Assembly (NCBI RefSeq): GCF_001548035.1
Contig: NZ_AP014723.1
Span: 248,001-312,000, forward strand
Source: Sulfurospirillum sp. UCH001
GTDB taxonomy: Bacteria; Campylobacterota; Campylobacteria; Campylobacterales; Sulfurospirillaceae
Length of the DNA stretch: 64,000 nt
Reading direction: 5' to 3'
Made by a program: the position numbers and the translations under genes. Below, in pieces: positions 40,795 through 42,812 of this stretch. The notes beneath the pieces are model-generated. The model ran no database searches. It was not told the DNA's origin and was given only the letters and a program-made list of their open reading frames with translations. Position 1 is the first letter of the stretch. The number at the start of each line of letters is the position of its first letter.

Positions 40795-41142
40795 ATGAAT
40801 AAAGAAAAACTTCTTTCAGACACGCAAACTTTGCACCGTTTTATTCAATTGCATTGTGATAAAAAACATCACGATGTTCCTAAAAAGAAAGGTGTATTAG
40901 AAGTTAGTTTCAAAGAAGAGGCACTGTGTGAATTGCCGTATCATATCTGTGAAGAGTGCGAAACACTCTTTATCTATGCGTATGGCAGACTTAAAAATTG
41001 TCCGCATGAACATAAACCGAGTTGCCGTAAATGTCCTGCCCCTTGTTATGAAAAGCCGATGTGGAAAAAAATGGCTAAAGTGATGATGTTTAGCGGAATG
41101 CAACTAGGTCTCACAAAATTACGCAAACTCTTTTCTAAGTAA
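40795..41142 (+). CDS. ygbA: YgbA-family protein (nitrous oxide-stimulated promoter family)
   Basis: Protein of 115 residues that matches the YgbA family (PF11756). It has a basic N-terminal helix and the Cys-rich core CEECETLFIYAYGRLKNCP, then CRKCPAPCYEKPMW, with seven conserved Cys/His that probably hold a metal or iron-sulfur cluster. The E. coli gene is induced by nitric oxide and has been tied to recovery of growth after nitrosative stress. Its stop overlaps the next gene by one base, so it is co-transcribed with the radical SAM/MnmD fusion. Confidence 0.82.
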   Translation: MNKEKLLSDTQTLHRFIQLHCDKKHHDVPKKKGVLEVSFKEEALCELPYHICEECETLFIYAYGRLKNCPHEHKPSCRKCPAPCYEKPMWKKMAKVMMFSGMQLGLTKLRKLFSK

Positions 41143-42812
41143 TGCTTCCCTATCTTAGCCATAAAGCACATATGCAACATGTGTATGGCAAAGCACTTTT
41201 TAGTATTCCCGTTAATTTAGAATTTGGCTGTCCCAACCGTGAAAAAGATGGTAACGGTGGGTGCTCCTTTTGCCCAGAACATGGCGCTCGTGCGGCTCAA
41301 ATTGCAGATGCTAAAAACGTGGAAGAGCAGATACAAAAAGCACTCTTTTTTGCAAAAAGACGCTACAAAGCCTCTTCGTTCGCGCTTTACATTCAAGCCT
41401 ATACTGGAACTTTCGCATCACTCCTCAAACAAAAAGAGGCATATGAAAAACTCTTAAGCCTTTATGCGTTTGATGCCTTTCATATCGGAACACGCCCTGA
41501 TTGTCTTACATCAGGAACTTTGGAATATTTGCGTGAACTGAGTCAAAAAATAGATGTTGTGGTGGAATTAGGTGTTCAAAGCCTGCACGATGAAAGTTTA
41601 GTACGAATGAACCGAGGACACAACTCAGCGTGTTCTCTTGAAGCCATTAAGCGTTTGCATGCGTATGGTTTAAAAGTCTATGCACATCTTATTATCGGCT
41701 TACCCAACGAAACGCCTGCTATGTGGAAAGAGAGCGTGCAAGGTTTGGTTGATGCAGGCATTGATGGTATAAAATTTCACAACCTTCACATCATTCACAA
41801 TACTGACTTAGCACATGAGTATGCCAAAAATCCTTTTGCTCTTTTGAATGAATACGAATACGCCGAAGCGCTTATGGAGCTGCTACGCACTATTCCTTCG
41901 CATATCCCTATTTTACGTCTTGCGACTGATACACCAGACGAAGAACTGGTTGCTCCTAAATGGCATATGGCAAAAGGGCAGTTTGGGGAGTATGTGACTC
42001 AGAGTATGCGTTATCGTGGTATTGCACAAGGAGATTTGACGATGTATCCTTGCATCTCATATTCTCCAAAAACAGACGCTCACATTTTATTAGAAGATGG
42101 TAGTGTCACATTATGGAATAAACGGTACCATGATTATTATCATCCAAAATCGGGTGCATATAGACAAGCAAAAGAGCTTTTTATCGAAAAATCAGACCTC
42201 AAAAATCGCCTTAAAAAGGGTGATGTAAAACTTTTAGATATTGGCTTTGGCATGGGATACAACACATTTTGTGCGTCAGAGATGGCTCAAAGTTTAGCGC
42301 AAAATACACTATATATAAAAGCAATGGATCAAGATCGTATGCTTTTACAGCAAAGTATGAGCATTGTTCCCAATGCTTCTCATGCCATACTTTTAGAGGC
42401 ACTCTTTAACAACAATGTATATGAAAATACATTTGCAAACATTGCATTTTTAAACGTAGAAGCGCGTTATGGAGTAACACTTTTGAAAGAATCGTTTGAT
42501 GTGATTTTTCTTGATCCTTTTATGGAGAGTAATAACGCTTCTTTAGTCACGTTTGATTTTTTCAAAATAGTACAAAAACTCTTAAAATCAGATGGTATTT
42601 TAGTGGCTTCCACTTCACTACAAGCAGTGCACGATGGACTGATGCTAGCGGGCTTTGATGTGTGTATCGTGAACGATGAAAAGAGCGATATAAAGGGTAT
42701 AATAGCAAGACTTTCTTCGTCATCTATTTTACCTGCTAAAGAGCCTTATCGCGACCCTTATGGTATATACAGCGATAAACAAATTGAAACACTGCATCAA
42801 AAATCGTCTTAA
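41142..42812 (+). CDS. Radical SAM (YhcC/YtqA, TIGR01212) fused to MnmD/MnmC2-like tRNA methyltransferase
   Basis: Two-domain protein of 556 residues. Residues 1 to about 305 are a TIGR01212 radical SAM domain with the unusual cluster motif CX10CX2C (Cys30, Cys41, Cys44) and GTRPDCLT, ELGVQS and HLIIGLPNET. From about 318 on there is a MnmD/MnmC2-type domain: DGSVTLWNKRYHDYYHPKSG, the SAM loop DIGFGMGYN near 366, and IFLDPFMESNN near 456. MnmD-type enzymes methylate nm5U34 to mnm5U34 in tRNA. The radical SAM relative YtqA of Bacillus was linked to the preceding step (as I recall). The fusion therefore suggests one protein that carries out consecutive wobble-uridine steps. Confidence 0.88.
   Translation: MLPYLSHKAHMQHVYGKALFSIPVNLEFGCPNREKDGNGGCSFCPEHGARAAQIADAKNVEEQIQKALFFAKRRYKASSFALYIQAYTGTFASLLKQKEAYEKLLSLYAFDAFHIGTRPDCLTSGTLEYLRELSQKIDVVVELGVQSLHDESLVRMNRGHNSACSLEAIKRLHAYGLKVYAHLIIGLPNETPAMWKESVQGLVDAGIDGIKFHNLHIIHNTDLAHEYAKNPFALLNEYEYAEALMELLRTIPSHIPILRLATDTPDEELVAPKWHMAKGQFGEYVTQSMRYRGIAQGDLTMYPCISYSPKTDAHILLEDGSVTLWNKRYHDYYHPKSGAYRQAKELFIEKSDLKNRLKKGDVKLLDIGFGMGYNTFCASEMAQSLAQNTLYIKAMDQDRMLLQQSMSIVPNASHAILLEALFNNNVYENTFANIAFLNVEARYGVTLLKESFDVIFLDPFMESNNASLVTFDFFKIVQKLLKSDGILVASTSLQAVHDGLMLAGFDVCIVNDEKSDIKGIIARLSSSSILPAKEPYRDPYGIYSDKQIETLHQKSS

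Follow-up and report, generated by a model that had tools for sequence, protein, structure and literature searches.

In Escherichia coli and the Campylobacteraceae, both final steps towards mnm5U at the wobble position (U34) of tRNA fall to one bifunctional protein, MnmC, in which an FAD oxidase domain occupies the C terminus. MnmL and MnmD are each known in their own right, and the pathway is known in Gram-positive bacteria. MnmL (YtqA) of Bacillus subtilis and Streptococcus mutans scores over the curated cut-off of the TIGR01212 family and has an nm5U methyltransferase as its partner; its discovery in these two species is said to be the work of Jaroch et al. (2024), with an abstract that reportedly mentions 'fusion proteins'. 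A free-standing MnmC2/MnmD protein, which also works without MnmC1, is found in Aquifex, and the A. aeolicus MnmC2 structure (3vyw) belongs to a protein without a radical SAM domain. PMC12548931 and PMC12245174 cite the MnmL discovery result, and an unidentified MnmC(o)-like enzyme has been predicted for organisms with an orphan mnmC(m) (PMC9976899).

The locus described here lies in a window of 64,000 nt (the whole stretch of DNA analysed) from Sulfurospirillum sp. UCH001, the genome of which is a single contig of 2.6 Mb. At 41142..42812 (+, stop included), a gene with an ATG start codon encodes a protein of 556 aa that joins a radical SAM domain of the TIGR01212 family to a methyltransferase of the MnmC2/MnmD type. 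The initial annotation had already proposed that one open frame covers both domains, and full-length homologues across phyla bear this out. An assembly or frameshift artefact can be rejected, as the full-length fusion occurs in dozens of genomes, including all 13 sampled from the same genus (this one among them), where homologues display 64–80 % identity. As for MnmC, a single protein is predicted to perform both final steps to mnm5U; however, the radical SAM domain is placed at the N terminus, such that the domain order is reversed, and it is not homologous to the FAD oxidase. Indeed, Pfam and NCBIfam profiles detect no TIGR03197 FAD oxidase domain in the fused protein, and because this domain is absent the fusion, although probably an analogue of MnmC, is not a member of that family. 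Differences from Firmicutes MnmL are equally apparent, in that the fused protein sits on a separate branch, possesses a CX10C rather than a CX11C spacing, is joined rather than adjacent to its methyltransferase, and has an MnmC2/MnmD-type partner instead of MnmM.

The radical SAM domain comprises residues 1–299 (41142..42038, +) and is defined by TIGR01212 (237.6 bits over residues 6–298, curated cut-off 180), by the Pfam families Radical_SAM (PF04055) and Radical_SAM_C (PF16199, residues 207–289), and by a structural match to Elp3. Its [4Fe-4S] cysteine motif, CPNREKDGNGGCSFC (41229..41273, +), has the form CX10CX2C, contributed by C30, C41 and C44; the initial annotation had read the N-terminal half in the same way, and the HMM comparison places it over the family cut-off. 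These three cysteines, together with other conserved residues, are retained in all 37 of the aligned fusions that are complete at the N terminus, whilst members from Firmicutes and E. coli display a CX11C spacing. Pontiella-type fusions (L131, L134, L135, L138–L141, L143 and L146) harbour an unusually short loop, CX4CX2C (CPHGRCxFC), in place of CX10CX2C. TIGR01212 is named 'tRNA modification radical SAM protein MnmL/YtqA' in NCBIfam, and E. coli K-12 yhcC (L185:5122-6051, −) achieves 473 bits on this model. As E. coli has both MnmC and YhcC, members of TIGR01212 need not all be MnmC1 substitutes; a literature search found no paper linking YhcC, radical SAM and tRNA.

A linker of residues 300–318 (42039..42095, +), marked by a dip in pLDDT with low confidence at 304–306, leads into the methyltransferase domain (residues 319–556; 42096..42809, +). 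This begins with the MnmC2/MnmD N-terminal motif DGSVTLWNKRYHDYYHPKSGA (42096..42158, +), which in alignment pairs with DGS.T.....EF.E.YHS..GA of free-standing Campylobacterota MnmC2. The SAM-binding loop DIGFGMGYN (residues 366–374; 42237..42263, +) is the counterpart of Gly66–Gly70 in E. coli MnmC, and FLDPFMESNNAS (42507..42542, +) contains D458, the counterpart of the SAM-binding and catalytic Asp178 of that enzyme (roles of the SAM loop and Asp178 from PMC3648344). GFGMG and D458 are kept in the alignment, and the Glu101 position is occupied by Asp in the Sulfurospirillum fusion and by Glu in other fused members. The motifs quoted in the initial annotation all lie where it had placed them. 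The D458 counterpart is kept across fused proteins with the exception of three from Lentisphaerota (L150, L152 and L155), which have a degenerate methyltransferase half, with Glu at the Asp178 position and the YH motif lost, next to an intact radical SAM half. That the C-terminal half belongs to the MnmC2/MnmD family is upheld by PF05430 (Methyltransf_30; 40 bits over residues 430–508, gathering cut-off 22) and by its best PDB sequence match, 3vyw (E 3e-15). On the MnmC2 profile NF033855 it scores 74.6 bits (E 1e-20, residues 326–507), under the curated cut-off of 136, as do two free-standing Campylobacterota MnmC2 proteins at 100–104 bits.

An AlphaFold2 model built from an alignment of 38 fused proteins has a mean pLDDT of 91.5 and a pTM of 0.90 across the whole chain. 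The closest solved structure to the methyltransferase half is again 3vyw, matched by residues 310–556 over 238 residues (Z 28.0, rmsd 2.4), with E. coli MnmC at Z 21.8. The Aquifex protein has the same fold and active-site residues, and the model predicts that the fused protein possesses the MnmC2/MnmD fold with active-site counterparts in place. For the N-terminal half (residues 12–303), the closest solved structures are those of the Elp3 radical SAM domain (Z 21–24, approximately 20 % identity). Elp3 also acts on tRNA U34, but differs in that it adds a carboxymethyl group and carries an acetyltransferase domain.

With regard to distribution, 298 Campylobacterota genomes were sampled and GTDB contigs were also scanned. 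Amongst the former, all 13 genomes of its own genus possess the full fusion, which also occurs in two related genera, in Arcobacteraceae genus g50 and in most genomes of its own family outside genus g2. The contig scan revealed full-length fusions in Sulfurovum and Malaciobacter/Arcobacter, as well as in Kiritimatiellota, Lentisphaerota, Verrucomicrobiota, Planctomycetota, Cloacimonadota and Margulisbacteria (32–41 % identity); genomes of the PVC group with a full-length fusion mostly have no other PF05430 protein. Within Campylobacterota, for which the initial annotation had proposed a survey, the fusion is not general: it is carried mainly by Sulfurospirillaceae, with some Arcobacteraceae and Sulfurovum, and the Campylobacteraceae have classical MnmC. 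Most carriers retain a second, free-standing TIGR01212 gene, and Malaciobacter-type genomes keep a free-standing MnmC2 besides the fusion. No record in the plasmid collection covers 80 % of the fusion query; the Firmicutes reference proteins were taken from the search of this collection.

The ancestry of the two halves was approached with quick tree searches, carrying SH-aLRT support only (73 rows for the radical SAM domain, 57 for the methyltransferase). In the radical SAM tree, fused proteins and PVC-group proteins form a clade (98) that is sister to spirochaete proteins. Firmicutes MnmL, E. coli YhcC and the free-standing Campylobacterota copies are set apart from this clade (99), the latter two grouping together (97) despite sharing an NCBIfam family with the fused domain. 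The domain assignment of the initial annotation stands as membership of TIGR01212, but this half has a branch of its own, closest to PVC-group and spirochaete proteins, and a place on either the YhcC branch or the characterised Firmicutes MnmL/YtqA branch is not retained. Strict orthology to Firmicutes MnmL likewise finds no support in the tree. Because both the branch and the cysteine spacing differ from those of characterised MnmL, function is carried over at the family level only. In the methyltransferase tree, all fused domains form one clade of their own (98), distinct from the free-standing MnmC2 of Campylobacterota. Campylobacterota fusions constitute a single clade in both trees (99 and 100), and the trees of the two halves agree. 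A local fusing of the genome's own free-standing genes is unsupported, because the closest company of both halves in the trees is with fusions from other phyla and not with the free-standing Campylobacterota copies. The simplest reading of these sequences would be one old fusion and one transfer into Campylobacterota, after which Sulfurospirillum lost its native free-standing mnmC2; acquisition by transfer, at least, is probable. Some relatives of the fusion appear to have later lost the methyltransferase. Members of the fused radical SAM branch without this domain occur in Kiritimatiellota and Lentisphaerota, where one is fused to QueH (L147, 2263-3897, +) and others adjoin a queH gene (L149, 2349-3930; L153; L154), and PF05430 proteins are missing altogether from six of the seven genomes that carry such members.

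Within the Sulfurospirillum genome itself, the only PF05430 domain is that of the fusion, and both MnmG (891 bits) and MnmE (397 bits) are present. The MnmC1 FAD domain was not found there (best TIGR03197 match E 1.6e-6, far below cut-off), in keeping with the view in the initial annotation of a lineage lacking the classical MnmC oxidase domain in this protein. Nor was MnmM found in the genome, and it is rejected as the partner methyltransferase on this ground. Directly upstream of the fusion is a gene of the YgbA_NO ('nitrous oxide-stimulated promoter') family (40795..41142, +; NF007718, 174.9 bits, cut-off 148), with its TAA overlapping the start codon of the fusion (TAATG). The gene is present in 13 of 13 same-genus loci, and no counterpart was found next to fusions from beyond the Sulfurospirillum group; its position does not imply membership of the modification pathway. 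Relatives in E. coli and Salmonella figure in nitric-oxide stress studies, and a link to a nitric-oxide-sensitive Fe-S enzyme is possible.

Across the 298 Campylobacterota genomes, an MnmC2-type domain is present in 262. MnmC1 over cut-off was recorded in 100 of these, none of which has TIGR01212 over cut-off, whilst TIGR01212 is found in 156 of the 162 without MnmC1 over cut-off (a cross-count made by hand from per-genome tables, in which 100, 156 and six remaining genomes add up to the total). Of these six, three belong to g11 and two to g49, where a free-standing MnmC1 scores near the threshold, and the last has a broken MnmC. Amongst MnmC2 carriers, TIGR01212 and MnmC1 thus exclude each other. 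The associated Fisher value (7e-66) overstates the exclusion, given the lack of independence between related genomes; the same contrast is seen again in Campylobacteraceae, in g49 and, partly, in g11. Many genomes contain sub-threshold free-standing FAD proteins (130–173 bits) that might be MnmC1, and so only in Sulfurospirillum and most Helicobacteraceae can MnmC1 be taken with confidence as absent. Four g49 genomes (G218, G220, G224 and G263) harbour free-standing MnmC1 over cut-off and free-standing MnmC2 with no TIGR01212, which is an independent swap of oxidase type. Conversely, TIGR01212 occurs without an MnmC2-type domain in G184 and G270 (g18), G231 (g54), G217 (g52) and G248 (g56), for which either an end at nm5U or another methyltransferase is predicted.

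Gene neighbourhoods elsewhere display comparable pairings of separate genes. Genera g17 and g32 of the Helicobacteraceae have a free-standing mnmC2 preceded directly, on the same strand, by a free-standing radical SAM gene, and in Bacilli (Anoxybacillus, Enterococcus) a TIGR01212 gene is directly followed by an MnmM-like methyltransferase. The TIGR01212 family is therefore tied to an nm5U methyltransferase in three ways, by an MnmM neighbour, an MnmC2 neighbour and the MnmC2 fusion.

Taken together, it is likely that the fusion is a bifunctional wobble-uridine enzyme converting cmnm5U to nm5U and then to mnm5U; from the above we infer its reaction, substrates, product and order of steps. MnmE and MnmG would place the carboxymethylaminomethyl group (cmnm5) on U34, whereupon the N-terminal domain, by way of its [4Fe-4S] cluster and SAM, would remove the carboxymethyl to leave aminomethyl-uridine (nm5U). 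The C-terminal domain would then methylate the nm5U amine with a second SAM, yielding mnm5(s2)U34. For the radical SAM half, the step from cmnm5U to nm5U is the most likely assignment, based as it is on family, MnmC1 exclusion and the fusion. That the two domains act consecutively on the wobble uridine, as first suggested from the fused frame, finds support in the conserved fusion, the Helicobacteraceae adjacency, the MnmC1 exclusion and the lack of MnmC1 and MnmM, with the chemistry itself predicted. Counting against a bifunctional enzyme are the branch and cysteine spacing unlike those of characterised MnmL, the methyltransferase score below the NF033855 cut-off, the second TIGR01212 gene in most carriers, the additional free-standing MnmC2 of Malaciobacter-type genomes and the coexistence of MnmC and YhcC in E. 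coli.

An unlikely alternative, albeit the best placed, is that the methyltransferase half uses nm5U formed directly by MnmEG with ammonium, and that the radical SAM half performs some other wobble-base reaction on the same tRNAs. MnmEG and ammonium can indeed give nm5U without MnmC (PMC3648344), and those members of the radical SAM clade that lack a methyltransferase are linked, by fusion or as neighbours, to QueH, which likewise acts at the wobble position. The exclusion of TIGR01212 and MnmC1 amongst MnmC2 carriers, however, is what would be expected if both served the same step, and the family is annotated as MnmL.

Little more credence, and if anything slightly less, can be given to the free-standing YhcC-type protein being the real MnmL, leaving the fused radical SAM domain redundant or engaged in tRNA docking, with only the methyltransferase half of consequence. 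TIGR01212 is represented twice in the Sulfurospirillum genome, by the fusion and by a free-standing protein of 318 residues (CX11CX2C) adjoining purF, and the latter both outscores the fusion on TIGR01212 (294 versus 238 bits) and is kept beside purF across the order. Against this, the three cysteines and other conserved residues persist in the 37 fusions with a complete N terminus, the three Lentisphaerota fusions lost methyltransferase motifs yet kept those of the radical SAM half, and two genomes (G239 and G264, both 99 % complete) have the fusion and no other TIGR01212 protein. Action on a different substrate, whether elsewhere in the tRNA or on a nucleoside that is not U34, is very improbable, for although both branches have diverged from characterised proteins, the genome encodes MnmE and MnmG but no MnmC2-type protein besides the fusion, which retains the MnmC2 active-site residues.

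For the bifunctional wobble-uridine enzyme, it is moderately likely that a single-polypeptide, oxygen-independent counterpart of MnmC, with a distinct radical SAM branch and an MnmD-type methyltransferase, reached several phyla by horizontal transfer and represents the missing 'MnmC(o)-like' activity of orphan mnmC(m) bacteria. What appears to be new is the fusion with MnmC2, the separate branch of its radical SAM domain and the occurrence of the fusion in several phyla, although the MnmL discovery paper may list fusions. Fusion, adjacency and MnmC1 exclusion point to the missing enzyme before the orphan mnmC(m) step, and the fusion allows the two steps to be assayed together on one polypeptide. 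If this is true, the QueH-linked members without a methyltransferase would extend the radical SAM branch to wider wobble-position chemistry. It also suggests that a two-step machine has been built at least twice, once with a flavin and once with radical SAM.
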